Shown: piece after piece, positions 2,746 through 38,858 of the stretch | Position numbering within the stretch: position 1 is the stretch's first letter | Layout of the letters: each line of letters begins with the position of its first letter | NCBI GenBank assembly: GCA_019232625.1 | Contig: JAFANP010000006.1 | Coordinates: 172,401 to 236,400, forward strand | DNA length: 64,000 nucleotides | Direction of reading: 5' to 3' | Source of the DNA: Alphaproteobacteria bacterium | GTDB taxonomy: Bacteria; Pseudomonadota; Alphaproteobacteria; Sphingomonadales; Sphingomonadaceae | Translations under genes and position numbers: made by a program | The notes under the pieces: model-generated | Database searches by the model: none | The model's input: only the letters and a program-made list of their open reading frames with translations | What the model was told of the DNA's origin: nothing

Positions 2746-2973
2746 ATGAACACGCCTCTGAAGATCAAGAAGTTCGGCAATTCCGCGGGAGTCATCCTCC
2801 CCAAGGAGCTGCTTGCCCGGTTGCGCGTCGCACCCGGCGACACCGTCTTCGTCACGGAGGCGCCCGACGGGTTGCGGATTACCGCGAGCGATCCCGATTT
2901 CGCCGAGAAGATGGCCCTGGCCGAGGAGATCATGCGCGAGGACCGCGATATCCTCCGCGTTCTCGCTCAGTGA
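2746..2973 (+). CDS. AbrB/MazE-type antitoxin, SpoVT domain
   Basis: A 75-residue antitoxin. The N-terminal swapped-hairpin DNA-binding domain is recognisable in [18 protein letters not shown] (residues 6-23), and the C-terminal helix [20 protein letters not shown] resembles the toxin-binding tail of AbrB antitoxins paired with Doc. The stop is four bases before the doc start, so the two are cotranscribed. As in related modules, the antitoxin probably represses its own promoter, and the -10 region directly upstream would be the target. Confidence 0.9.
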
Positions 2974-2977
2974 CCGC

Positions 2978-3370
2978 ATGACCACGCAGGCGCGGCAGGA
3001 GCCGGTCTGGATCGAGCGCGACGTTGCGCTCGCCATCCACGACCGTCAGCTCGCCGAGCACGGCGGAGGCGTCGGCGTGCGCGACGAGAACGCCTTCGGA
3101 TCCGCCTTGGCGCGACCGATCAACAAGTGGAGCTATGAGGACGAACTCGTATCCCTCGCGGCCGCTTATGCCTTCGGCGTCGCGCGCAACCATGCTTTCG
3201 TCGATGGCAACAAGCGCACGGCCTGGGTGCTCGCGCGTCTTCTCCTCGCCCTCAACGGCGTCAAGCTTCGCTTCACGGGGTCGGAGGCGATCGAGATCAT
3301 GCTCGCCCTCGCCGCCGGGGAGCTCAGCGAGGAGGAGATGGCGGAGTGGTTCCGGCGGCACCAGGGCTGA
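2978..3370 (+). CDS. doc: Doc-type death-on-curing toxin (Fic fold)
   Basis: A 130-residue Fic/Doc toxin. The active-site motif [11 protein letters not shown] (residues 72-82) matches the H-x-F-x-D-G-N-K-R-T-A of Doc, whose founding member phosphorylates EF-Tu; here that activity is inferred from family membership. The residues needed for catalysis are intact. Preceded by the AbrB-type antitoxin with a 4-bp gap. The stop abuts the convergent MaoC gene without a spacer. Likely a chromosomal type II toxin-antitoxin module. Confidence 0.92.
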
Positions 3371-3851: not shown

Positions 3852-6800
3852 ATGAGACTCAAGCCCGTTGAAGCCGCCGAGGCGTCCGACGCTACGGCAT
3901 CCGCGCGCGCCGAAATCCGCCGCCTCCACCGCGCGAGCGAGCCCGAGGTGCTGAAGCCCCTCCTTGCCGACGCCGCGCTCGATCCCGATTCGCGGCGGCG
4001 GGTGGAAGGCCGCGCGCTCGGCATGCTCGCCGACCTCAGGGCCGCGCAATCGTCGGGCTGGGTCAACCAGTTCCTGCAGGAATATCGCCTCAACACCTCC
4101 GAAGGAATCGCCCTCCTTTCCCTGGCGGAAGCCTTCCTGCGCGTGCCCGACCCGGAAACGGCCGACCAGCTCATCGCCGACAAGCTCGGCAATGCCGACT
4201 GGCGCGCCCACAAGGGCAAGTCCCATTCGAGCCTGGTCAACTCCGCCACCTGGGGCCTGGTGATCGGCCGGGCGCTGGTCAGCGACAGCGAGCAGGCGAG
4301 CGCGCTCAAGCGGCTCGTCGCGCGGGTCGGCGAGCCGTTCGTCCGCCAGGCGGTGGGCGCGGCGATGCGGCTGATGGGCGAGATCTTCGTCATGGGCCGG
4401 ACCATCGACGAGGCGATCAAGCGGATGGAGCGGCGCGAGAATGCCGGCTTCACCGCCAGCTTCGACATGCTCGGCGAGGCGGCCCGCACCTTCCCCGACG
4501 CGGAGCGCTATTTCCGAAGCTACGAGGAGGCGATCCGCGCCGTCGGCAAGGTGGCGAAGCGCGGCCACTCCATCTCGGTCAAGCTCTCCGCCCTCCACCC
4601 GCGCTACGAGGTGGCGCAATATGAACGCTGCGTGCCCTCCCTGGTCGAGCAGGTCGAGGCCCTGGCCCTGCTCGCCCGCAAGACCGGCATCGGCTTCACC
4701 ATCGACGCGGAGGAGAGCGAGCGGCTGGAGATGAGCCTCGACATCATCGAGACGGTGGCGGGACTGCCGTCGCTCGAGGGATGGGACGGGCTCGGCATGG
4801 CCGTCCAGGCCTATGGCAAGAGGTGCCGGCCGACCATCGCCTGGGCCGACGCAATCGGCGCCGCCACCGGCCGGCGCATCGCCGTCCGCCTCGTCAAGGG
4901 CGCCTATTGGGACAGCGAGGTCAAGCGGACCCAGGAGCAGGGGCTGCCCGATTACCCGCTCTTCACCCGCAAGGCGGCGACCGACGTCTCCTATCTGGCC
5001 TGCGCGCGCGACATGCTGGCGGCGAGGAACATCTATCCCGCCTTCGCCACCCACAATGCGCTCACCGTCGCCACCCTGCTCGAATGGGCAGGGCCGAGCC
5101 GCGACTTCGAGTTCCAGCGCCTCCACGGCATGGGGGAGGGGCTCTACGAGACGCTGGTGCGCGAGCAGGGCTACCAGACCCGCATCTATGCGCCGGTCGG
5201 GGGCCACCGCGACCTCCTCGCCTATCTCGTGCGCCGGCTGCTCGAGAACGGCGCCAATTCGAGCTTCGTCCACCAGCTCGCGGACGAGCGGCTGACCGAT
5301 TCCGACATCCTCGCCGACCCGGTGGCGAAGATCGCGGCGGTGGGCGGCTCGCGCCACTCGGCCATTCCCCTGCCCAAGGACCTGTTCGAGCCGGTACGGG
5401 GGAACAGCCAGGGCCTCGACCTGGCCGACCGGGTGGAGCTGGAGCGGGTGGCGCGCGCCGTGGCGAGCGCTCCCCTCCCGCTCGCGGGAGCGGCCGGGGG
5501 CGGGCAGGCGGAGACCGCGCGCGCCCACCCCCCGGCCCCCTCCCGCGCGCGGGAGGGGGAGAAGCCCGCGGTCACTTCCACCGGCGAGGGTGCCGACCGG
5601 TGCAAGGCCGAAGCCCGCGCGATGGTCTCGCGCGCGCTCGCCGCCTTCCCCGCCTGGGCGTCGCGGCCGGTCGAGCATCGCGCCCGCTGCCTCGAGCGCC
5701 TCGCCGATTTGCTCGAGCAGGAGCGCGACGCGCTGATGCGGATCTGCGTCCAGGAAGCGCGCAAGACCATCCCCGACGCCCTCGCCGAAGTGCGCGAGGC
5801 GGTCGACTTCTGCCGCTATTACGCCAACCAGGCCCGTGCCGGGCTGCAGCCCGTCGAGCTACCCGGGCCGACCGGCGAGCGCAACGTCTTGAGGATGGAG
5901 GGCCGCGGCGTCTGGGTCTGCATCGCGCCCTGGAACTTCCCGCTCGCCATCTTCCTCGGCCAGGTCGCCGCCGCCCTGGTGACCGGCAACGCGGTGGTCG
6001 CCAAGCCGGCCCCGCAGACCCCCGAGATCGCCGCCTACGCCGTCGGCCTCGCCCACGGCGCGGGCATTCCGGAGGACGCGCTCGTCCTCGCGCCGGGCGG
6101 TCCGGACATGGGCGGGGCCCTCGTCGAGGACGGCCGCATCGCCGGCATCGCCTTCACCGGGTCCACCGCCACCGCCAAGCGCATCGCCCGCGAGCTGCTG
6201 AGCGACGACGAGCGGCCGATCATCCCCTTCATCGCGGAGACCGGCGGCATCAACGCGATGATCGTCGATTCCACCGCCCTGCCGGAGCAGGTGGTGATGG
6301 ACGTCGTCACCTCCGCCTTCCGCTCCGCCGGCCAGCGCTGCTCGGCGCTGCGCCTTCTCCTCCTCCAGGAAGAGATAGCGGAGCGCACGCTGGAGATGCT
6401 CGCGGGAGCGATGGACACGCTCGTCGTCGGCGACCCGGCCGACCCCGCCACCGACGTCGGCCCGGTGATCGACGAGGGCGCCTACGACCGGCTGATGCGG
6501 CACCGCGAGGAGACGCGGGCCCGCTGGATCAAGACGGTGGAGGCGCCGGCCGGGGGCCTGTTCGTCCCGCCCACCCTGATCGGCATCGACCGGGTCGAGG
6601 ACCTCGGGAAGGAATGGTTCGGCCCGCTCCTCCACGTCGCCACCTGGAAGGCGGGCCGGCTCGCCGAGACGGTGGAGCGGGTCAATCGCTCGGGCTTCGG
6701 CCTCACCATGGGCCTCCACAGCCGAATCGCCCGCGCCGCCGAGACGGTCGAGGAGGTGGCGACGGTCGGCAATCTCTACGTCAACCGCTCGATGATCGGC

Positions 6801-6971
6801 GCCATCGTCGGCTCGCAGCCGTTCGGCGGCGAGGGCCTCTCCGGAACCGGCCCCAAGGCGGGCGGCCCCCATTACCTCCCCCGCTTCTGCGCCGAGCGGG
6901 TCACCAGCACCGACACGACGAGCGCCGGCGGCAACGCGACCTTGCTCAGCCTGGAGGATGTGGGGCTGTAG
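3852..6971 (+). CDS. putA: Bifunctional proline dehydrogenase / L-glutamate gamma-semialdehyde dehydrogenase
   Basis: A 1039-residue PutA that oxidises proline to glutamate in two steps with substrate channelling. The FAD-binding PRODH barrel spans about residues 90-480 (RLVKGAYWDSEVKRTQEQG near 346) and the aldehyde dehydrogenase domain about 590-1030, with Glu796 in ETGGINAM and nucleophile Cys830 in SAGQRCSALR. There is no N-terminal ribbon-helix-helix domain, so it should not be the autorepressor form. Residues ~541-570, in the inter-domain linker, are encoded by a REP hairpin pair. The last 285 bp recur at 8666-8950 beyond an insertion. The reading frame is complete. Confidence 0.95.
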   Translation: MRLKPVEAAEASDATASARAEIRRLHRASEPEVLKPLLADAALDPDSRRRVEGRALGMLADLRAAQSSGWVNQFLQEYRLNTSEGIALLSLAEAFLRVPDPETADQLIADKLGNADWRAHKGKSHSSLVNSATWGLVIGRALVSDSEQASALKRLVARVGEPFVRQAVGAAMRLMGEIFVMGRTIDEAIKRMERRENAGFTASFDMLGEAARTFPDAERYFRSYEEAIRAVGKVAKRGHSISVKLSALHPRYEVAQYERCVPSLVEQVEALALLARKTGIGFTIDAEESERLEMSLDIIETVAGLPSLEGWDGLGMAVQAYGKRCRPTIAWADAIGAATGRRIAVRLVKGAYWDSEVKRTQEQGLPDYPLFTRKAATDVSYLACARDMLAARNIYPAFATHNALTVATLLEWAGPSRDFEFQRLHGMGEGLYETLVREQGYQTRIYAPVGGHRDLLAYLVRRLLENGANSSFVHQLADERLTDSDILADPVAKIAAVGGSRHSAIPLPKDLFEPVRGNSQGLDLADRVELERVARAVASAPLPLAGAAGGGQAETARAHPPAPSRAREGEKPAVTSTGEGADRCKAEARAMVSRALAAFPAWASRPVEHRARCLERLADLLEQERDALMRICVQEARKTIPDALAEVREAVDFCRYYANQARAGLQPVELPGPTGERNVLRMEGRGVWVCIAPWNFPLAIFLGQVAAALVTGNAVVAKPAPQTPEIAAYAVGLAHGAGIPEDALVLAPGGPDMGGALVEDGRIAGIAFTGSTATAKRIARELLSDDERPIIPFIAETGGINAMIVDSTALPEQVVMDVVTSAFRSAGQRCSALRLLLLQEEIAERTLEMLAGAMDTLVVGDPADPATDVGPVIDEGAYDRLMRHREETRARWIKTVEAPAGGLFVPPTLIGIDRVEDLGKEWFGPLLHVATWKAGRLAETVERVNRSGFGLTMGLHSRIARAAETVEEVATVGNLYVNRSMIGAIVGSQPFGGEGLSGTGPKAGGPHYLPRFCAERVTSTDTTSAGGNATLLSLEDVGL
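5475..5559. repeat. GC-rich REP-type hairpin pair inside the putA coding frame
   Basis: Two palindromes lie within putA: CTCCCG-CTCG-CGGGAG at 5475-5490 and a perfect 24-bp palindrome at 5536-5559 with a CCCGCGCGCGGG core. The same two palindrome types, in opposite order and with similar spacing, form the intergenic element at 48848-48948. The element is read through in frame and codes a Pro/Ala/Gly-rich stretch between the two enzyme domains. Confidence 0.8.
6687..6971 (+). repeat. Left copy of a 285-bp direct repeat (3' end of intact putA)
   Basis: The last 285 bp of putA match 8666-8950 in direct orientation. I count 14 differences (about 95% identity), none of which changes an amino acid; the stop is TAG here and TAA there. 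Eleven of the 14 lie in the last ~110 bp. The two copies bracket the 6972-8665 insertion. Confidence 0.9.
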
Positions 6972-8601
6972 CGTCGGTGGAGGCTGAAGGCTTAAATCCG
7001 AGGGCCCAACCGGGCACAACATCAAAGACTGCGCGGGAAGGCGAGTACAGAACCGCCGAGCCGAGGCTGGACTGTTCATGTGCCGCGGCTGTCGAGAGAT
7101 TGGACAAGCTCTCGCGGGCTTGCCTTACATTTTGAACAACCGACTCGCGGCCCTGCGCTACGACAAAGTAAGTGATCCCTGCGGCGATGAAGCCGAATAT
7201 TATAGGAGTTCCTAAGGTCGATATTAGCTCCTCAAGAATATCTGAACTGCCACTGTTATGGCCGAAGTTCGTGCAGGCATAGAGAAGGGTTAAGGCAGCA
7301 ACGGCAATCCCGACCCCAAACGGTAGGTTTTCAGACGCCGGTGGAGGATCTCTCATTTCACCTGCTGCAGCCCGCCTGTCCTGCAGTAAAGAAGATAAGA
7401 AAACTTTTGCATTCTCGACAAATTTAGCATTCCAATTCCCCAAATCCATCCACAGATTCGGTATCTCCTCCAGCACTATCCGAATATCATCTATGCCGAA
7501 ATCAGCGGATTCTTCGAGCCGCCGAGCCAGGCTCCTTGCCGCGTTGATCGCTGTGGAGTCACTGGAATTTGCACCGTAGGACACATCGAATGTATTGCTG
7601 TAGTAATAAAGAGCAGACATTCGATCTGCCTCCGCTTTGATAAGCGGATGTGCACCGAAAGCAATTTCCTTTATCTCTTGCAGCAATTCCGAAAACACTT
7701 TTTCTACGAAGTCAGTCTGAAGGATAAAAGCGGGATCGCCTGGAGCCTTCGTCAGGAGATTTCTGTCGAGCCGAATGGACCACTTGAGGTGGTACGCTGC
7801 CCCCTCAAGATCGCGTAGCGCGCAGAAGGCCCGTGCAAGCTCGTAATGCAGTCCGGCTGTCTCGTGTAAGGTCAAGCCTTTGCGGGCATATGCTGCTGCT
7901 TCAGTGTATTTGCCTTGGCAGTTTGCCGCGTAAGCCGCATAGAGCTGCCCATTCGCAGACTCTTCCGGAAAGTCATGTGCCGCGTAACGTGATGAAGCCA
8001 GGAATGCTGACTCGGCCGCGCTGAGGTCAATTACGTCCGGCGAATTATTTAAAGAGTCTCCAAGGAGCACGACTCCACGCAGAAAGTGAAAACGGTGCTC
8101 GGTATTTTCACCTAACTCGCTACCGTAACCGTTAATTGCCTTATCGACGGCATCGAGGGCTTCCGCAAAGTGGCCACGCCTAAGTCGGTCGCGCGCCCTG
8201 CTGAACTGCTCGTAAGCCCAAGTCAGCGAAGGGTTTTCAATCAGGTTTTCAATTTTTTCCAGATGATCGTTGGTTCGACCCAGTTCGGCGGCAACGCGTG
8301 CAAATCCCCACTCGAGGACGGAACCTACGCGAGAGAACCCGTCTTCCGTAGCCTTCTTAAGGTCACTGATCGACCATACTATTTCGTGAGTCGCTTCACG
8401 GTGAGCCTCCTCAAGACGCTCGAGCTGTCTGATCTGCGCCCCGGAAGCTTCATTCGTGGTGGTAATCATCGACTTCACCGGTGCACTGACCCACGTAGCG
8501 AGTTCGCGATTAAGCTCCCGCTGTTGAAGGAAGTCCGTGTACGTCATGCTGCTATCGCTCGATCGATAGTATGCCGTTGGCGAACCGAGCCACTGAGCCA
8601 T
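6946..8601 (-). CDS. TPR-containing membrane protein of unknown function (accessory gene in putA)
   Basis: A 551-residue protein of a family I do not recognise. Residues ~50-115 are a charged amphipathic/coiled-coil stretch (QIRQLERLEEAHREATHEI). Residues ~120-290 look like tetratricopeptide repeats (RLRRGHFAEALDAVDKAI; GKYTEAAAYARKGLTLHE). Two hydrophobic segments near the C-terminus (GVGIAVAALTLLYAC; PIIFGFIAAGITYFVVA) would anchor it in the membrane. GGGGGAG precedes the ATG at 8601. Its GC is clearly lower than the rest of the window, with AT-rich third positions, which indicates transfer. The last ~8 codons are read antisense through the putA end, so the native C-terminus may have been lost. 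Confidence 0.8.
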   Translation of the reverse strand: MAQWLGSPTAYYRSSDSSMTYTDFLQQRELNRELATWVSAPVKSMITTTNEASGAQIRQLERLEEAHREATHEIVWSISDLKKATEDGFSRVGSVLEWGFARVAAELGRTNDHLEKIENLIENPSLTWAYEQFSRARDRLRRGHFAEALDAVDKAINGYGSELGENTEHRFHFLRGVVLLGDSLNNSPDVIDLSAAESAFLASSRYAAHDFPEESANGQLYAAYAANCQGKYTEAAAYARKGLTLHETAGLHYELARAFCALRDLEGAAYHLKWSIRLDRNLLTKAPGDPAFILQTDFVEKVFSELLQEIKEIAFGAHPLIKAEADRMSALYYYSNTFDVSYGANSSDSTAINAARSLARRLEESADFGIDDIRIVLEEIPNLWMDLGNWNAKFVENAKVFLSSLLQDRRAAAGEMRDPPPASENLPFGVGIAVAALTLLYACTNFGHNSGSSDILEELISTLGTPIIFGFIAAGITYFVVAQGRESVVQNVRQARESLSNLSTAAAHEQSSLGSAVLYSPSRAVFDVVPGWALGFKPSASTDATAPHPPG

Positions 8602-8665
8602 TTGCTCTCCCCCTCGCACGAGGATGTTATTGGGGTTCCGGGATGTCAACGGTGAAGCGTGTGAC
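6972..8665. mobile_element. 1.7-kb low-GC insertion in the 3' end of putA
   Basis: DNA between the two copies of the putA 3' end. It holds one complete gene (the TPR/membrane protein) and no transposase, integrase or terminal inverted repeats that I can see. Composition falls from ~70% to roughly 50% GC at 6972 and recovers at 8666. The arrangement equals insertion at putA codon ~946 by DNA that brought its own synonymous putA 3' end and so kept the host gene intact. Confidence 0.6.
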
Positions 8666-8950
8666 CGCTCCGGCTTCGGCCTCACCATGGGCCTCCACAG
8701 CCGGATCGCCCGCGCCGCCGAGACGGTCGAGGAGGTGGCGACGGTCGGCAATCTCTACGTCAACCGCTCGATGATCGGCGCCATCGTCGGCTCGCAGCCG
8801 TTCGGCGGCGAGGGCCTCTCCGGAACCGGCCCCAAGGCCGGCGGCCCGCATTATCTGCCGCGCTTCTGCGCCGAGCGGGTCACCAGCACGGACACGACCA
8901 GCGCCGGCGGCAACGCGACCTTGCTCTCCCTGGAGGACGTCGGGCTGTAA
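8666..8950 (+). pseudogene. Displaced putA 3' fragment (95 codons including stop)
   Basis: Encodes the same last residues as PutA (from SGFGLTMGLHSR to SLEDVGL, then TAA) but has no start, no upstream enzyme domains and no ribosome-binding site. It is not a gene on its own. It is either the original end of putA cut off by the insertion or a copy brought with it. Differences from the intact copy are all synonymous. Confidence 0.85.
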
Positions 8951-9084
8951 TTTCCCCGAGTCGCACCCCCGGTCCACGATCGATCCGGGGCATCTTGCCC
9001 CCCTCTCCCCGGCGGGAGAGGGGCTTCGACAAATACGGGGACGCTAGCCCTAGAGCGATGAGGGACCGGATTGAATGGCCGGCA

Positions 9085-9169
9085 CCGTTCGCCCTGAGCC
9101 TGTCGAAGGGCTTTCCTTCCCCTTGCGCAAAGCAGAAGGGAAAGGCTTCGACAGGCTCAGCCCGAACGG
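9085..9169. repeat. Dispersed palindromic element (GTTCGCCCTGAGCC family)
   Basis: CCGTTCGCCCTGAGCCTGTC at 9085 recurs inverted at 9145-9169, with a second nested palindrome (CTTTCCTTCC / GGGAAAG) between them. A half copy sits at 11073-11098. The rest of the 8951-9197 intergenic region holds a GC-rich REP fragment near 9001-9020 and no gene. The hairpin lies between the convergent putA fragment and outer-membrane gene and could terminate transcription. Confidence 0.75.
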
Positions 9170-9197: not shown

Positions 9198-9992
9198 CTA
9201 GAACCGCTTCGACACGCCGGCGTAGAGCTGCACGTCCGGTGCCGCTTCGTTGAGGCCGATGTTCGCGCCGACGTCCAGCTGCAGGTCGTCCTTCGCCATC
9301 CACCCGGCGGAGAGCCCCGCCAGAAGCTCGGTCGAGCGGCCCGACGGGTCCTCGTCCCGAACCGCGCTGAGCTCGGCCGTCGCCGACAGCGTCTCGCTCA
9401 ACTCCGCCGACAGGCCGGCGACGCCGCCATAAGCGAGGTGGCGGCCGTGGCGGTCCTCGTCCGCGGCGGCTTCGACCTGCCCCGTGAGGCCGAGCTGCAG
9501 CCCGTGCGGAAGCTCGTAGCTCACCGGGACGAGCAGCCCCGCGCTCCAGTCGCCTGCGCCGATCGCGCCGTTCCCGGTCGGCAGCGTCGCATAGGGCATG
9601 AGCGCCGCCGAGAAGCCCTTGCCGTCCGGATGGGCGAGGTTGGCGCGGAGGGCGAGGGTCACGTCTCCGATGCCGTCCATGCGCGAGCGGCCTGCCGCAT
9701 TCCGCTCCTTCACCCGTCCGTAGGCCGTCCAGCCGAGCTGCGCCTCGATCCGGTCGGAGAGGCCGAGGCGGACGAGGATCTCGCCGAGCTGCAGCGTGTC
9801 GGTGCGCGCCCCGCCGTCCCGCTCCAGCGTCCAGTCGGCGAGCCCCAGCTCGACCGCGGCATGGCCCGCGTCGATCGTGCAGGGCGGCGTGCCCAGCCCC
9901 GGACGGTCCGGGCAGAAGTCGCGGAGACCCTGCGCTCCGGCGGGGGCGGCGGCGGCGAGGAAGAGGGCGGCGAGCCGTGCGAAGCTGATCAT
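9198..9992 (-). CDS. Outer-membrane transporter-like protein (phenol-degradation MetA family)
   Basis: A 264-residue exported beta-barrel protein. Residues 1-20 are a Sec signal ending AAAPAGAQG. The mature part begins with FCPDRPGLGTPPCTIDAGHAAVE and alternates short beta strands throughout. It ends in Phe (GVSKRF), the signature of Bam-inserted outer-membrane proteins. The pattern fits the MetA-pathway/transporter family of small barrels with unproven substrates. It is convergent with the putA fragment and divergent from the deaminase gene. Confidence 0.75.
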   Translation of the reverse strand: MISFARLAALFLAAAAPAGAQGLRDFCPDRPGLGTPPCTIDAGHAAVELGLADWTLERDGGARTDTLQLGEILVRLGLSDRIEAQLGWTAYGRVKERNAAGRSRMDGIGDVTLALRANLAHPDGKGFSAALMPYATLPTGNGAIGAGDWSAGLLVPVSYELPHGLQLGLTGQVEAAADEDRHGRHLAYGGVAGLSAELSETLSATAELSAVRDEDPSGRSTELLAGLSAGWMAKDDLQLDVGANIGLNEAAPDVQLYAGVSKRF

Positions 9993-10054
9993 GCCGCCCT
10001 ATTAGCGGCCCGCCGCCCTTGCCGCGAGCGCCCGACTCGGCGAAGGATGGCGTC

Positions 10055-11062
10055 ATGACCGATCTCGACGCCTTCATCGCCGGCCTGCCCAAGGCCGAGC
10101 TCCATATCCATATCGAGGGCAGCCTCGAGCCGGAGCTGATGTTCGAGCTGGCGAGGCGCAACCGGGTGGCGATCCCCTTCGCGAGCGTCGAGGAGGTGCG
10201 GGCCGCCTACAGCTTCTCGAACCTCCAGGACTTCCTCGACATCTACTATCAGGGCGCCAACGTCCTGCTCCACGAGGAGGATTTCCGCGACCTCGCCGTC
10301 GCCTATTTCGACCGGGCGGCGGCCGACGCCGTGACCCACGCCGAGATATTCTTCGACCCGCAGACCCACACCGACCGCGGCGTCGCCTTCGACACGGTGG
10401 TGCGCGGCCTTCTCGCCGGGATGGACGAGGCGCGCGAGAGGCACGGCCTGACTTCCAAGCTGATCCTCTGCTTCCTCCGCCACCTCGACGAAGACGCGGC
10501 CTTCGCGACGCTTCGCAAGGCCGAGCCGTGGCTGGAACGGATCGAGGCGGTGGGCCTGGACAGCTCGGAAGTGGGCCATCCCCCTTCCAAGTTCGCCCGG
10601 GTGTTCGCCGCCGCCGCCGAGCGGGGCCTGAAACGGGTCGCCCATGCCGGCGAGGAGGGGCCGCCCGAATATGTGCGGGAGGCGCTGGACATCCTCAGGG
10701 TCGACCGGCTCGACCACGGCAATCGCTCGCTGGAGGACCCGGCGCTTGTCGACCGGCTGGCGCGCGAGGGGATGACCCTCACCGTCTGCCCGCTCTCCAA
10801 CCTCAAGCTGTGCGGAGTGAAGGACATGGCCGAGCATCCGCTCGACCGGATGCTCGCCCTTGGGCTTCGGGCGACGGTGAACTCCGACGACCCGGCCTAT
10901 TTCGGCGGCTATGTGAACGACAATTACCGGGCGGTGGCGGCGGCCCGGCGGCTGAGCCGCGACCAGCTCGCGACCCTGGCCCGCAACAGCTTCCTGGGGT
11001 CGTTCCTGGGAGAGTCGGAGAAAGCGGCGCGGATCGCCCGGCTGGACGCCTATCTCGCCTAG
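10055..11062 (+). CDS. Adenosine/adenine deaminase, probably adenine deaminase (Aah1-like)
   Basis: A 335-residue zinc amidohydrolase of purine salvage. Zinc and active-site residues are all present: HIH in LPKAELHIHIEGSLEPE (H17/H19), HAGEEGPPEYV, DHGNRS and SDDPAYFGGYVNDNY. The short N-terminus, the FLDIYYQGANVL segment and the SDDPAYFGGY motif resemble the fungal/bacterial adenine deaminase branch more than true adenosine deaminase, so adenine to hypoxanthine is the better guess. The start is the ATG at 10055; a longer frame lacks a good ribosome-binding site. Confidence 0.88.
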   Translation: MTDLDAFIAGLPKAELHIHIEGSLEPELMFELARRNRVAIPFASVEEVRAAYSFSNLQDFLDIYYQGANVLLHEEDFRDLAVAYFDRAAADAVTHAEIFFDPQTHTDRGVAFDTVVRGLLAGMDEARERHGLTSKLILCFLRHLDEDAAFATLRKAEPWLERIEAVGLDSSEVGHPPSKFARVFAAAAERGLKRVAHAGEEGPPEYVREALDILRVDRLDHGNRSLEDPALVDRLAREGMTLTVCPLSNLKLCGVKDMAEHPLDRMLALGLRATVNSDDPAYFGGYVNDNYRAVAAARRLSRDQLATLARNSFLGSFLGESEKAARIARLDAYLA

Positions 11063-11072
11063 AGCAAGGAAG

Positions 11073-11242
11073 CCCTTTGACAGGCTCAGGGCGAACGGTG
11101 CGGGCGTCAATCCGATCCCTCGTCGCTCTAAGTCCCCTCCCTGCGTGCAGGGGAGAGGCTAGGGGTGGGTGCGTCTCCGGAAGAGGTTTCGCGCTTCATT
11201 GACGGACCCACCCCCGGCCCCTCCCTGCACGCAGGGAGGGGG
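11073..11242. repeat. Cluster of dispersed palindromes between deaminase and mscS genes
   Basis: Begins with a half copy of the GTTCGCCCTGAGCC family (11073-11098). Two REP-type palindromes in opposite orientation follow: CCCTCCCTGCGTGCAGGGG near 11136 and CCCTCCCTGCACGCAGGGAG near 11221, flanked by matching GGGGTGGGT/ACCCACCCC. They lie between convergent genes. No coding sequence is seen in the interval. Confidence 0.7.
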
Positions 11243-11243
11243 G

Positions 11244-12437
11244 TCAGCCCGGGGCCGGCTTGTCCGGCTGCTCCGGCCGATCCGCTCCCTCGTCCTCTTG
11301 CGCCACCAGCCTGACCGGCGGGTAGGGCATGATCAGGCTTCCGTCGGGCGCCGCCGTGAAGGTCGTCTGGCTGGGATAGGCGAGCTGGACGTCCTCGCGG
11401 TTGAAGCGGTCGAGGATGGCGATGCAGACCGCGCTTCGGGTGCGGTAGACCTCCTCATAGTCGGTCGAATGGACGTCGAACTGCAGCTCGAAGTCGAGCG
11501 TCGAGGCGCCGAAGCCGGTCATCCCCGCCCGCACCAGCGACGCCTTGGGCTGCGCCTCGACGATCTCCTTCAGCATCGCCGGCAGGCGCGCGCACACGTC
11601 CGACGGAGTCTGGCAGACGAGGCCGAGCGGCAGCACGATCCGGCGATGCTCGAGATGCGCGAAATTGTGGATCTGTTGCTCGAGCAGCTTCGCGTTGGCG
11701 ACGACGATCTGCTCGCCCGAGAGGGAGCGGATCCGGGTCGTCTTGAGGCCGATATTCTCGACGGTGCCGTTGACCTCGCCGAAGCGTATGCCCTCGCCGC
11801 GCCGGAAGGGCTTGTCGAACAGGATCGACAGCGCGGCGAACAGGTCGGAGAATATGCCTTGCGCGGCGAGGCCGATGGCGATGCCGCCGATGCCGAGGCC
11901 GGCGACGAGGCCGGTGACGTTGACGCCGAGATTGTCGAGGATGAGGATGATCGCGATCGCGAACAAGGCGATGGTGACGAGCAGCCGGATGATCCCGACC
12001 GCCGAGCTCAGGGTGCTGTGCTCGTCGCTGGCGCCGACGCGGTGCTCGACATAGCCGAGCACCAGCTCGCGCGCCCAGATCGCCGCCTGGATGGCGAAGG
12101 CGATGACGAAGGCGGCGTGGATGACGCTCATCAGCGTCGGCGGGGTGAAGGCGTGCTCCGCGACAAGCTCGGCCGCGGCCGCGATCATGAAGTAGAGCTT
12201 CGTCCTCGAAAGGACGCGGGCGAAGATCACCGGCCAGTGCGGGTCGCCGCCCCAGCGCGAGATCAGCCGGCAGCCGAGCGTGCGTATCGCCAGCATGGCG
12301 AGGACGAGGAGGACCCCGAGCGCGGCGGCGATGAGGATGCCGACGAGATTGCCGCTCACCCACTGGGCGGCTTCCGCCGCGAGGCGCTGGCTCTTTTCGG
12401 TGACGTTCGTCGCGACACCGGCAGTGTGGACGTTCAT
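11244..12437 (-). CDS. MscS-family mechanosensitive ion channel
   Basis: A 397-residue inner-membrane channel that would release solutes under hypo-osmotic shock. Hydrophobic segments lie near residues 30-55, 85-125 and 150-175. The pore helix and beta domain show GLGIGGIAIGLAAQ, LFAALSILFDKPFRRGE and RSLSGEQIVVANAKLLEQ. The C-terminal tail is acidic and Pro-rich. The start codon overlaps the topoisomerase stop by one base, so the two genes are translationally coupled. Confidence 0.9.
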   Translation of the reverse strand: MNVHTAGVATNVTEKSQRLAAEAAQWVSGNLVGILIAAALGVLLVLAMLAIRTLGCRLISRWGGDPHWPVIFARVLSRTKLYFMIAAAAELVAEHAFTPPTLMSVIHAAFVIAFAIQAAIWARELVLGYVEHRVGASDEHSTLSSAVGIIRLLVTIALFAIAIILILDNLGVNVTGLVAGLGIGGIAIGLAAQGIFSDLFAALSILFDKPFRRGEGIRFGEVNGTVENIGLKTTRIRSLSGEQIVVANAKLLEQQIHNFAHLEHRRIVLPLGLVCQTPSDVCARLPAMLKEIVEAQPKASLVRAGMTGFGASTLDFELQFDVHSTDYEEVYRTRSAVCIAILDRFNREDVQLAYPSQTTFTAAPDGSLIMPYPPVRLVAQEDEGADRPEQPDKPAPG

Positions 12438-13543
12438 CAGGCCGCTTCCGCCTTCACCTTCGCTTCCGCCTCGGCCGCCATCTCCGCCTCCGCCTGCTTC
12501 TTCGATTTGGCGCCGGCTTGTGCCCGAAGCCGGGCCTTCTCGTCCACCCTCGCGGTCTCCTGCGGCAGGGCGTCGAGGAACTCGATCAGGCCCCGCTCGG
12601 CCGCGGACAAATATTTGGACGGACGCGGCAGACGGCGATCCCCGATCGCGCCGGAATCCTTCGCCGCCTCGATCAGCGCCGGGTGGACGTAGGATTTGCG
12701 GCTGATCGCGGGCGTGTTGCCGAGCGCCTCGGCGACCGGCTCGATGACGCTCTTCAATTTGACGCTGCCATGCTTGCGCAGGCGCTTCTCCATCTCCTCG
12801 AAGGCGATCACGCTCGCCCCCCAGGTGCGGAAGTCCTTGGCGGTGAACTCCTCTCCCATCGCCTCCTTGATGTAGGCGTTGACGTCACCGGAGGTGACCG
12901 GGCAGACGCCGCCCTCCTCGCTCACATATTCGAACAGATTCTGTCCCGGCAGGTCCTGCGTCCGCCGGGCGATCCGGACGAGGTTGCGGTCGGTGATGGT
13001 GACGGTGCGCTTGACGCCGTGCTTGCCGGCATAGCTGATCTTCAGCCGCCCGCGCTCCACCCTGGCATGCCGGTTCCTCAGCGTCGTCGCGCCGAAGCTC
13101 TTGTTCTCCTTGGCATATTCCTCGTTCCCTATCCGCATCCGGGTTTCGTCGATCAGCCTGACGACGGCGGCGAGCACCGTCTCCATCGCCGTCGCCTTGC
13201 CCTTGAGGTCTTCCTCCACCCGCTTCCTGAGCTTGGGCAGGGCCCGCCCGAAGGCGGCCAGCCGCTCATATTTGCGCGCCTCCTGCTGGGCGCGGAAATC
13301 CGGGTGGTAGCGATATTGCTTGCGTCCCTTGGCATCGAAGCCGACCGCCTGGATATGGCCGTTGGGGAAGGGGCAGAACCAGCAGCGCTCATAGGCCGGC
13401 GGCATGCCGACGCCGTTCAGCCGGTCGATCTCCTCGCGATCGGTGATGCGTCCGCCGCCGGCGTCGAAATAGAGCCAGTAGCGCCCCTGCCGCTTGCGGC
13501 TGATGCCCGGGACGCTGTCGTCGACATATCTCAGCCTTGTCAT
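12437..13543 (-). CDS. DNA topoisomerase IB (poxvirus/eukaryotic type)
   Basis: A 368-residue type IB topoisomerase that relaxes supercoils through a 3'-phosphotyrosyl intermediate. The nucleophile is Tyr285 in SRKSYVHP. The catalytic region KDFRTWGASVIAF carries another family Arg. The N-terminal domain has the bacterial TopIB motif KRQGRYWLYFDAGG and RYHPDFRA. The last ~40 residues are a Lys/Glu/Ala-rich tail beyond the usual length. Encoded upstream of mscS with a 1-nt overlap. A DNA-repair or stress role is often proposed for bacterial members; that part is inference. Confidence 0.93.
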   Translation of the reverse strand: MTRLRYVDDSVPGISRKRQGRYWLYFDAGGGRITDREEIDRLNGVGMPPAYERCWFCPFPNGHIQAVGFDAKGRKQYRYHPDFRAQQEARKYERLAAFGRALPKLRKRVEEDLKGKATAMETVLAAVVRLIDETRMRIGNEEYAKENKSFGATTLRNRHARVERGRLKISYAGKHGVKRTVTITDRNLVRIARRTQDLPGQNLFEYVSEEGGVCPVTSGDVNAYIKEAMGEEFTAKDFRTWGASVIAFEEMEKRLRKHGSVKLKSVIEPVAEALGNTPAISRKSYVHPALIEAAKDSGAIGDRRLPRPSKYLSAAERGLIEFLDALPQETARVDEKARLRAQAGAKSKKQAEAEMAAEAEAKVKAEAA

Positions 13544-32597: not shown

Positions 32598-32996
32598 TCA
32601 GCGCGCCGGGCAGGCGTCGAGGCGGAGCGAGGAGGAGGGCGGCGGCGAAGGATCGTCCTGCTTGGGGCCGATGGCGAGCATGCCATGGCCGCCGCTGGCG
32701 GGATCGTCCTGCTTGGGGCCGATGGCGACCATTCCGTGGCCGCCGCTGGCGGGGTCGTCCTGCTTGGGGCCGATGGCGCGCGGATCGTCCTGCTTGGGGC
32801 CGATCGCGACGGCGCCGGTGCCGGCCTGCGGGTCGTTCTCCGGGTGGATCGCCGCGACTCCGCCCTGGACGATGATCCTGTTCGAGGGACGGGTGCGGCA
32901 GCCCGCCGGGTCCACGTGCGGAAGGCGCGGCGGCGGAGTCGCGGCGCCCGCGCCGGCAGGGGCTTGAAAGGCGATGAGCAGCAGGGGGAGGATCAT
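32598..32996 (-). CDS. Secreted GPKQDDP-repeat protein, 132 aa
   Basis: Signal peptide LPLLLIAFQAPAGAGA (about residues 2-18), then a Cys-containing linker and four exact AIGPKQDDP repeats (a diverged AIHPENDP precedes them), separated in part by ASGGHGM. The C-terminal tail is Pro/Ser-rich with a second Cys (SSSLRLDACPAR). The repeats are Pro-, Asp- and Gly-rich and should be extended. GGGGGAGG precedes the ATG. The gene is divergent from a prolyl-hydroxylase-like gene 120 bp away and followed after 5 bp by the hydrolase-like gene. Function unknown. Confidence 0.7.
   Translation of the reverse strand: MILPLLLIAFQAPAGAGAATPPPRLPHVDPAGCRTRPSNRIIVQGGVAAIHPENDPQAGTGAVAIGPKQDDPRAIGPKQDDPASGGHGMVAIGPKQDDPASGGHGMLAIGPKQDDPSPPPSSSLRLDACPAR
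32651..32812. repeat. Tandem repeat array coding the GPKQDDP units
   Basis: Four near-identical copies of GATCGTCCTGCTTGGGGCCG start at 32651, 32702, 32753 and 32783, so the periods are 51, 51 and 30 bp (17, 17 and 10 codons). All periods keep the reading frame. The shorter last period lacks the ASGGHGM spacer. This pattern fits expansion by slippage or unequal crossover within the gene. Confidence 0.85.
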
Positions 32997-36278: not shown

Positions 36279-38858
36279 ATGACGACCTACGATCTGGGGA
36301 GCCCGGTCCTTTCCGGCGCCACCTTCTACGGCCCGCAATATTACACCCAGCTCGGCCGCGATCTGTCCGCGCTCGGCGACGTCAACGGCGACGGCATCAA
36401 CGATTTCGCCCTCCAGGTCACCTATACCCAGAACGGCTATGCGCCGGGCGGCGCCTACGTCCTGTTCGGGAAGGTCGGCGGCCTCGGCGCGGTCGACCTC
36501 GCCAACCTCACCGCCGCCCAGGGTTTCTACCTTCAGGCGCCGGGAACCTATCCGGCGATCGTCGAGCATGTCGCCGCCGCCGGCGACGTCAACGGCGACG
36601 GCTTCGCCGACTTCCTGATCTCCGATCCGCGCTACAACGATTTTACCGGCCGCGCCTATCTGGTCTACGGCAAGGCCTCCTTCGCCGGTCCGATCGACCT
36701 CGCCAACCTGCAGCCCGCCGACGGGCGCATCTTCAACGGCCTCGTCTCCAGCTACAGCAACGGCGACTGGCTGGGCTCTTCGATCGCCGGCATCGGCGAC
36801 CTCAACGGCGACGGGCTGGACGACTTCTTCATCGGCGCCGACACCTCGTCCGCCTACGGCACGAACAGCGGCCGCGGCTGGGTCATCTACGGCAAGGTGG
36901 GCGGGATCGGCGCCGTCAACCTCGCCGCCATCGCCCCCGCGGACGGCTTCGCGATCAAGGGCGCCGCCGGCATGTTCGCCGGCACCAGCGCCTCGGCGCT
37001 CGGCGACGTCAACGGCGACGGCCGCGACGACTTCATCGTCAGCGGCGTGTTCAAGACCTATGTCATCTACGGCAAGGCGGGCGGCTACTCGCAGCTCGAC
37101 TTCGCCAGCTTCCCGGCCGATGCCGGCTTCGCGATCGTCGGCAACGGGGTGACCTACCCGGCGGCCGCGGCCGGCGACGTCAACGGCGACGGCTATGGCG
37201 ACATCGTCCTCAAGCACGGCTCCGGCGCGGCCGTCGTCTTCGGCCGGGCCGGCGGCTATGTCGAGGTACAGCTCCAGTCGCTGGCGGCGAGCGACGGCTT
37301 CGCCGTCTCGGCCTTCAACGATATCGGCGACGTCGCTGCCGCCGGGGACGTCAACGGCGACGGGTTCGACGACCTCCTCTTCGGGTCGATCGCCTACAAC
37401 AATTATGCCGGCAAGGCCTTCGTCCTCTACGGAAAGGCGCAGCTTCAGGGCCCGGTGAACCTCGACACGCTGGCGGACGATGCCGGCGTCGGGTTCGCCG
37501 GCACGATCGCAAACGGCTATGCCGGCCTCGCCGTCGCGGCCGCGGGGGACGTGAACGCCGACCGGATCGGCGACATCCTGATCGGCGCCCCCAGCACCGG
37601 CCCCCTCTACAACGGCACCGACTATCTCATCTACGGCGGCCTGCCGTCGGGATCCCTGACCCGGGTGGGGGCGGCTGGCGGGCAGCTCATCGTCGGCGGG
37701 GAAAGCGGAGACCTGCTCGACGGCCGCGGCGGCGACGACGAGCTCGTCGGCAATGGCGGCGCCGACCAGCTGCTCGGCGGCGAGGGCAATGACCGGCTCG
37801 ACGGCGGCGCCGGCGCGGACGCGTTGGTCGGCGGCGTGGGCAACGATACCTATGTGGTCGACCAGGCCGGCGACGTCGTGACGGAGCTCGCCGGCGAGGG
37901 CACCGACACGGTCGAGACCAGCCTCGGCAGCCGAAGCGACTTCGCCGCGCTTTATTATCTCCCGGACAATGTCGAATACCTCACCGGCACCTCCGGCACC
38001 GGCCAGGGCGTCTGGGGGAGCGGGGCGGACAATGTGGTGAGGATGGGCGACGGCGGCGACCTCGTCGTCCTCGCCGACCGCAGCGACTATTATGCCGCGG
38101 CGGCCGGGAACGACGACGTCGACGGCGGGGGCGGCAACGACTTCCTGTTCTTCGGCGGCAGCTTCTCGAACGGCGACAAGGTGAACGGCGGGGCGGGGTT
38201 CGACACCCTGGGCCTGCTCGGGACGTACAGCGTCACCTTCGATGCCGACGATCTCGTCGGCATCGAGAAGCTCGCCGGCTACGGATCGGGTAACGCGGCG
38301 GCGCCGAACAATTACGCCTTCACCACCATCGACGCCAACGTCGCCTCGGGCCAGACGCTGATGGTGATCGGCCTTTCGCTTCGCGCCGGCGAGCATCTCG
38401 TCTTCGACGGCTCGGCCGAGAATGACGGGCGCTTCAACCTTCGCGGCGGGTGGGACAGCGACACGCTCACCGGCGGCCATGGCAACGACCAGATCTACGG
38501 CAATCTCGGCGCCGATATGCTGAAGGGCGGCGGCGGCAACGACAGCTTCGAATATTATGCCGTCGCCGAATCCACCGCCGCGGCGAGGGACTCGATCCTC
38601 GACTTCAGTAGCGGCGACCGGATCAACCTCGCCGCCCTCGACGCCGACGGCAACGGGGCGAACGGCGACACCGCCTTCACCTTCATCGGCTCGGCCGCCT
38701 TCACCGCCGCCGGCCAGGTCCGTGCGGTGGAGGACAATTCCAATCCCGGCCACTGGACGGTGGAAGCCGACCTGAACGGCGACGGCAATGCCGACCTCTC
38801 GATCGCCGTCACCGTCGTCGACGGCCACGCCTTCGCCTATACGGACTTCTACCTCTGA
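36279..38858 (+). CDS. Large secreted FG-GAP (integrin-like) and RTX calcium-binding repeat protein
   Basis: An 859-residue protein. Residues ~1-460 hold seven integrin-type FG-GAP repeats, each with a calcium loop such as LGDVNGDGINDF or AGDVNGDGFADF. Residues ~465-530 are RTX nonapeptides (GGDDELVGNGGADQLLGGEG). A later RTX block follows near 720-760, and the end has ADLNGDGNADLSIAVTVVDG. There is no N-terminal signal peptide, so type I secretion by a C-terminal signal is expected; no such exporter is in the window. The last 80 residues are nearly identical to the C-terminus of the protein encoded at 63757-64000. GAGAGAGGG is the ribosome-binding site. Confidence 0.9.
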   Translation: MTTYDLGSPVLSGATFYGPQYYTQLGRDLSALGDVNGDGINDFALQVTYTQNGYAPGGAYVLFGKVGGLGAVDLANLTAAQGFYLQAPGTYPAIVEHVAAAGDVNGDGFADFLISDPRYNDFTGRAYLVYGKASFAGPIDLANLQPADGRIFNGLVSSYSNGDWLGSSIAGIGDLNGDGLDDFFIGADTSSAYGTNSGRGWVIYGKVGGIGAVNLAAIAPADGFAIKGAAGMFAGTSASALGDVNGDGRDDFIVSGVFKTYVIYGKAGGYSQLDFASFPADAGFAIVGNGVTYPAAAAGDVNGDGYGDIVLKHGSGAAVVFGRAGGYVEVQLQSLAASDGFAVSAFNDIGDVAAAGDVNGDGFDDLLFGSIAYNNYAGKAFVLYGKAQLQGPVNLDTLADDAGVGFAGTIANGYAGLAVAAAGDVNADRIGDILIGAPSTGPLYNGTDYLIYGGLPSGSLTRVGAAGGQLIVGGESGDLLDGRGGDDELVGNGGADQLLGGEGNDRLDGGAGADALVGGVGNDTYVVDQAGDVVTELAGEGTDTVETSLGSRSDFAALYYLPDNVEYLTGTSGTGQGVWGSGADNVVRMGDGGDLVVLADRSDYYAAAAGNDDVDGGGGNDFLFFGGSFSNGDKVNGGAGFDTLGLLGTYSVTFDADDLVGIEKLAGYGSGNAAAPNNYAFTTIDANVASGQTLMVIGLSLRAGEHLVFDGSAENDGRFNLRGGWDSDTLTGGHGNDQIYGNLGADMLKGGGGNDSFEYYAVAESTAAARDSILDFSSGDRINLAALDADGNGANGDTAFTFIGSAAFTAAGQVRAVEDNSNPGHWTVEADLNGDGNADLSIAVTVVDGHAFAYTDFYL

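Follow-up and report, generated by a model that had tools for sequence, protein, structure and literature searches.

How does a metabolic gene come to possess two 3′ ends that encode the same residues, with a GC-poor gene lodged between them? The question is raised by putA in a 64,000-nt stretch of the draft genome of a Sphingomonadaceae alphaproteobacterium (contig JAFANP010000006.1, positions 172,401 to 236,400; hereafter the window), in which a GC-poor segment bearing one tetratricopeptide repeat (TPR) gene stands between two 285-bp copies of the putA end, with 14 synonymous differences between the copies; this much had been claimed by an earlier sequence-only reading and is confirmed by our alignment. 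The reading that we tentatively favour is that a foreign insertion replaced the gene end, with the putA end serving as the stretch for homologous recombination. The parts of the locus are these:

3852–6971, + strand: putA, an intact open reading frame of 1,039 aa (Aldedh, Pro_dh and Pro_dh-DNA_bdg above their Pfam cut-offs, the PRODH N-terminal model below its cut-off)
6687–6971, + strand: copy A, the closing 285 bp of putA by sequence comparison, which completes the 1,039-aa PutA
6687–6725, + strand: segment L of copy A, with 2 differences from copy B in 39 bp
6726–6859, + strand: segment M of copy A, with no differences from copy B in 134 bp; the likely crossover site
6860–6971, + strand: segment R of copy A, with 12 differences from copy B in 112 bp; likely a foreign putA end completing the host enzyme
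6946–8601, − strand: the cargo gene, encoding 551 aa with helices at the N-terminus, a TPR domain and two hydrophobic stretches at the C-terminus
8602–8665, strand not assigned: short non-coding border from the cargo start to copy B
8649–8665, + strand: a putative, diverged continuation of copy B over 17 nt, with one 1-nt deletion (weak)
8666–8950, + strand: copy B, an unattached putA 3′ end that we take to be the native one, displaced
8705–8838 and 8839–8950, + strand: the copy B counterparts of M and R, respectively

The two copies lie 1,979 bp apart, and the segment between them (6972–8665) has a GC content of 0.535 as against 0.705 for the window. The 14 of 285 nucleotides at which they differ affect 12 sense codons and the stop (TAG in one copy, TAA in the other), 13 codons in all, and every change is synonymous, an outcome with a probability of about 3e-8 to 2e-7 (13 of 13) under random mutation. 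Synonymous-only divergence of this kind is normal for separately maintained orthologues, since the putA end of another species (G252) encodes the same amino acids at 91–92% DNA identity. The gene itself is intact and is closed by the end that adjoins the insert; the fragment on the far side leads into DNA that is native by linkage. The genome was available as one draft assembly (66 contigs, 3.89% estimated contamination), in which there are only two full copies of the putA end, the third match being 29 nt long.

The differences between the copies are clustered rather than spread (L 2/39, M 0/134, R 12/112; Fisher test of M vs R, 6e-5). As a yardstick we took the final 285 bp of putA from 23 congeners (excluding G264, where it is cut short, and G256, where it has diverged too far) together with the two copies here, which gives 299 pairs, all between species of the genus once the A/B pair is set aside. 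Across these pairs segment M shows 8 to 32 differences and segment R 8 to 33, with 12 or fewer in R in 19 pairs; by these ranges the two copies are as alike in M as sequences of a single species, while in R they differ as two closely related species do. In the 253 pairs that involve relatives only, 57% of differences lie in L and M, and by this pooled share the 2 of 14 seen between A and B have a p value of 0.0014. The R segment of copy A is closest to that of G261 (91% identity) and the R segment of copy B to that of G254 (93%), and the two stand apart in the best tree of the final 112 bp. We infer that the donor supplied R in copy A and that copy B has the host's R. The earlier suggestion that both copies were lately parts of functional genes in different genomes thus survives for the final ~110 bp, and perhaps for the first few tens, but not for the identical 134 bp in the middle.

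Which end is native is indicated by the genes behind copy B:

9198–13543: a Phenol_MetA_deg-type protein (− strand), adenosine deaminase (+ strand), an MscS channel (− strand) and topoisomerase IB (− strand), assigned by Pfam

In the sequence read from the congeners, putA is followed downstream by MscS and topoisomerase IB genes in 17 of the 25, by an adenosine deaminase gene in one (G263) and by a Phenol_MetA_deg-type gene in two (G257 and G262); MscS is found 37–40 kb downstream on the same contig in G249 and G254, far off on the same contig in G250, and on another contig in G252, G261, G263 and G265. Because the genes that follow putA in the genus stand behind copy B, copy B is the native end by linkage; the R segment of copy A is linked to the cargo. 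The interval between putA and MscS is itself highly variable among the congeners (loci L060–L084), from less than 100 bp to about 40 kb. In the window, a hairpin repeat with GTTCGCCCTGAGCCTGTCGAAGGGC-like arms occurs at 9078–9169 and 11070–11105, the latter being an inverted copy 2 kb away.

Empty sites, which the sequence-only reading had proposed to look for, were sought in the congeners, none of which is of the same species: all 25 have a single putA end (three of them, G256, G261 and G264, diverged or contig-cut near that end) and all 25 are without the cargo. In the 25 putA loci taken, at least 4.7 kb of downstream sequence was available for 23 (34 bp for G261, 445 bp for G256), and among the matches listed no second putA end was found downstream in those 23. 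The best matches there, three short ones, were taken as chance or repeats. The one in G257 spans 31 nt at 97% and falls beyond the final 285 bp of the query; that in G229, at a distance of 7.3 kb downstream, spans 43 nt at 84%; and that in G265, which had counted as a second match for this genome, spans 38 nt at 82%. The claim that the insert brought a related putA end and left the host gene intact is in keeping with these counts and with the linkage of copy B, but the ends are not uniformly diverged, as that claim in its simple form would have it.

As an event, the favoured insertion may be pictured as follows. A 1,979-bp unit, consisting of one cargo gene and one putA 3′ end, would likely have entered the putA 3′ end from another species; the unit's own end would complete the enzyme, the native end would be pushed downstream and the enzyme would be unchanged. 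The crossover or crossovers would fall in segment M, with RecA-type recombination as the presumed agent, either as a single crossover by a circular molecule of putA end and cargo (M then being homogenised as a conversion tract) or as a double crossover, in which case the donor would have had the cargo between two putA ends of its own beforehand. Homologous recombination is favoured because the contig carries no tyrosine recombinase (PF00589), the non-coding border is scant and the insert ends share no repeats of at least 9 nt (neither inverted nor shared ones were found between the end stretches 6972–7171 and 8566–8665). The 134-bp identical run needs an extra cause, because an integrase crossover by itself keeps the differences between two ends; what is asked for is a conversion tract, a donor with two like ends, or duplicated host DNA. 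Duplication through inter-chromatid pairing during transformation is documented in pneumococcus (PMC3784515). Were recombination between the two ends to remove the insert, putA would also be left intact, as both code for identical amino acids. It is possible, though in our view less likely than not, that the unit is an integrase-free 2-kb cassette with a synonymous target end, moving between species by host homologous recombination and restoring the enzyme at entry and exit, so that the gene end is a mobility device. If true, small cargo would be moved by RecA-type recombination via a duplicated gene end, a part that any conserved gene end could play, and single-gene islands without an integrase, hard to explain otherwise, would have a simple route.

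Several observations weigh against an insertion by homologous recombination from another species. Twelve differences in R stand at the low end of the between-species range (8 to 33), and the clustering is less striking when measured against the species pair that is most extreme in this respect (p 0.07) than against the pooled share. A sister grouping of A and B, which the sequence-only reading had named as fatal to gene-end replacement, is absent from the best tree, but the constraint is not rejected on the final 112 bp (difference in log likelihood 7.7, p 0.214 in the approximately unbiased test). Neither a donor nor an uninserted strain of the same species was found. Divergence on the left flank amounts to 2 sites and the weak 17-nt extension: upstream of copy B the similarity continues for 17–18 bp more with four mismatches and a 1-nt gap, a weak match whose score against the host is reached by 29 shuffles and by 148 genomic pieces out of 3000 each (against the best relative, by 1 of 400 shuffles), and which, weak as it is, would make the left side diverged as well. 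The draft was read from one assembly, in which a 134-bp repeat is able to mislead short-read assembly. For serine recombinases and transposases, the lack of a frame holds inside the insert only, and the sole relative of the cargo with readable context rides an integrase element, which points to an integrase.

The cargo gene runs from 8601 to 6946, its stop codon lying inside copy A, and a Shine-Dalgarno-like GGGGGAGAG precedes its ATG (by eye). Its GC content at third codon positions is 0.547 vs 0.934 for putA. The AlphaFold model (mean predicted local distance difference test score 73.6) comprises helices, the TPR domain and a helical C-terminus; hydropathy peaks in two stretches, at 426 and 463, and the product is predicted to be a membrane protein. 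The best PDB profile matches are TPR proteins, as are the best of 1,038 fold matches. No Pfam or NCBIfam model scores above its cut-off, and neither PADLOC nor PHROGs gave a match; we would guess at a TPR protein bound to the membrane that acts as a sensor or in defence. Besides the cargo, the only frame of at least 80 aa within the insert is an antisense one (8170–8655), the others listed running in from putA or the copies. A transposon was considered and rejected, there being no terminal inverted repeats of at least 9 nt between the insert end stretches and no transposase frame in the insert.

Relatives of the cargo are scarce. With its own genome included in the counts, it was found in 1 of 249 genomes of the family (a single protein), 2 of 396 of the order and 1 of 385 of the class, and a wider profile found it in 2 of 397 family genomes; it was found in none of the genome contig, plasmid, IMG/VR and phage collections (the last searched with it as DNA). 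A search of a collection of 5.8 billion proteins, with scores for the 7,998 candidates that had most words in common, puts the close family at 7 members (the window's included) and the family around a relative from Novosphingobium album at 18. A metagenome relative, P0002, has a cargo protein 82% identical to the window's. An identical cargo protein occurs on three contigs of that collection, the longest of 260,105 bp vs 236,400 bp here. With the N. album relative as query, the genome contigs returned the N. album genome alone, and the phage collection gave no match.

Second putA ends, which bear on a possible parent element of a cis-mobilizable element (CIME) at this site, were looked for as doubled or free ends, and not as integrases beside putA. 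In the family 228 of 249 genomes match the putA end, eight of them doubly (G000, G007, G032, G127, G203, G211, G236 and G241); the second match was placed for G000 and G241 only, that of G241 being a 1,050-aa frame, and six others are unplaced. In the class 134 of 260 genomes match, with two matches in G000 only. A 90-aa frame lies at a contig end in G583. Among plasmids 253 records match, 13 of them covering 80% of the query, and most of the 20 matches listed are annotated as putA or as a proline or glutamate-semialdehyde enzyme; six phage records match, none at 80% cover. No free putA end was found in IMG/VR, where the 14 matches are 11 frames of 949–972 aa and three running off the locus end. 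Across congeners, family and class, then, no doubled end was placed outside the window's genome (with the six family genomes unplaced), and the idea of putA as a recurring integration site finds no backing, the sole placeable doubled end being the window's own.

The strongest competitor, which we consider possible but rather less probable than not, is insertion by a tyrosine integrase at the putA 3′ end with gene-end restoration, the integrase having since been lost or acting in trans, so that the insert would be a CIME-like remnant. Its layout matches that of e14 in icd, and CIMEs of 1.2–13 kb at protein-gene 3′ ends have been published (PMC7563491). The only cargo relative with readable context, in N. 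album B2580 (30% identity over 294 residues), is the last gene of a 9.3-kb element that also encodes an AAA_25 protein and a tyrosine integrase (PF00589, 104 bits) and lies between two 45-nt copies of the tRNA-Thr(CGT) 3′ end, with the intact tRNA gene upstream; in this one case the cargo family rides a gene-end-targeting integrase element, and an integrase origin here is plausible for that reason. Five PF00589 proteins are encoded elsewhere in the genome, all on other contigs and none on the window's, and three of the five match the N. album integrase locally (31% over 155 residues, 39% over 49 and 41% over 46); two stretches surrounding two of these were read and contain no tRNA. An integrase is nevertheless absent from the insert, and since cargo coding sequence enters copy A and leaves 64 bp to copy B, there is little room for the arms of attachment (att) sites. 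An integrase crossover alone also leaves 134 identical bp next to 12 differences in 112 unexplained, and both the lack of another placed doubled putA end and the make-up of the IMG/VR matches count against it. In N. album B2580 itself (L101:2139-11670, L107:15039-15114), two tandem elements stand behind tRNA-Thr(CGT) with ends alike over 231 nt (84%), and it is the second that bears the integrase, the AAA_25 protein and the cargo relative.

We judge it unlikely that the locus arose by homology-facilitated illegitimate recombination, in which a crossover near 6860 joins donor R and cargo and an illegitimate joint at 6687, on a sister copy, duplicates the host's L and M. This would account directly for the identity of M, and microhomology at the second joint would account for the weak 17-nt similarity. 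Against it counts that the process normally deletes recipient DNA and does not duplicate it. It also requires a second chromosome copy, and the two differences in L and M, both of them within the first 39 of the 173 bp, must have arisen by mutation afterwards. The same mechanism, with displaced gene ends, has been proposed for Vibrio (PMC5361080), and it has reportedly been described in E. coli (PMC3240628).

Less probable still is an artefact of assembly or population, in which the chromosome would be uninserted (putA body, L of A, M, R of B) and the remainder (L of B, M, R of A, cargo) would be a separate 1,979-bp circle or variant joined to it via M. The path through M is ambiguous where reads fall short of 134 bp, and the draft's 66 contigs and 3.89% contamination are in keeping with such an error, but 150-bp reads, if used, would cover M, and at least one other assembly, whether or not from independent reads, has the cargo on a long contig (the same protein is on three contigs). 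Plain local duplication of the putA end with later insertion of the cargo, for which the identity of M and the confinement of the arrangement to one genome speak, can be set aside as highly improbable, because the 12 differences in 112 bp, all synonymous with one copy unselected, are at the level seen between close species; the sequence-only reading had rightly called it a poor fit.

Elsewhere in the window, a protein with a Phage_lysozyme domain (Pfam) is encoded at 862–1443 and a Fic/DOC family protein (Pfam) at 2813–3370, the latter preceded directly by a short AbrB-like frame (by eye), so that the two may form a toxin-antitoxin pair. An 80-nt palindromic repeat (GGGGACAGTTACCGGCC...GGCCGGTAACTGTCCCC) occurs in five copies (30676, 38866, 38946, 63591 and 63675) that include two tandem pairs; a 51-nt tandem repeat of 3–4 copies lies at 32650–32832; and eight 47-nt repeats at 36363–38146 mostly encode GDVNGDG-like motifs (FG-GAP/VCBS-like, by eye).

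It is reported of many islands that the gene which they enter is rebuilt (PMC12884075). For putA as an integration site, nothing was found in the titles and abstract beginnings of the papers listed, which does not exclude a prior report. The tRNA and tmRNA islands of the Islander collection likewise have a restored gene and a displaced fragment at their ends; here, in contrast, the target is a protein gene, there is no integrase and the repeated end is 285 bp long (PMC4383910). Displacement of type VI secretion effectors in Vibrio cholerae, the case for which homology-facilitated illegitimate recombination is proposed, likewise uses a homologous anchor and moves the old 3′ part downstream, with no integrase known, but swaps a toxin end for a different one, whereas the new and old ends of putA encode the same residues (PMC5361080). 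The CIMEs of Streptococcus salivarius at rpmG, rpsI, fda and rplL are likewise small cargo (1.2–13 kb) at protein-gene 3′ ends without recombination genes; they stand in tandem with integrative and conjugative or integrative and mobilizable elements, none of which was seen beside this putA (PMC7563491). The insert contains no recombination or transfer genes, and the putA ends would be att sites only putatively.

A close likeness in outcome is e14 in icd, where a metabolic enzyme gene is completed by a 3′ end that the element brought, and the old end, the 165-bp icdC, is found beyond the element (PMC6379469). The two differ in that e14 is a 15-kb element with integrase and excisionase and spread differences, whereas here there is one cargo gene, no integrase and a 134-bp identical run. 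In our control from E. coli MG1655, the 165-bp ends of e14 and icd differ at 12 sites (10 synonymous and 2 Asp/Glu), spread so that the longest identical run is 29. If the favoured reading is true, the mark to expect of insertion through a gene end is a diverged/identical/diverged pattern, unlike the spread differences of integrase-made e14, and one that can be searched for across genomes.

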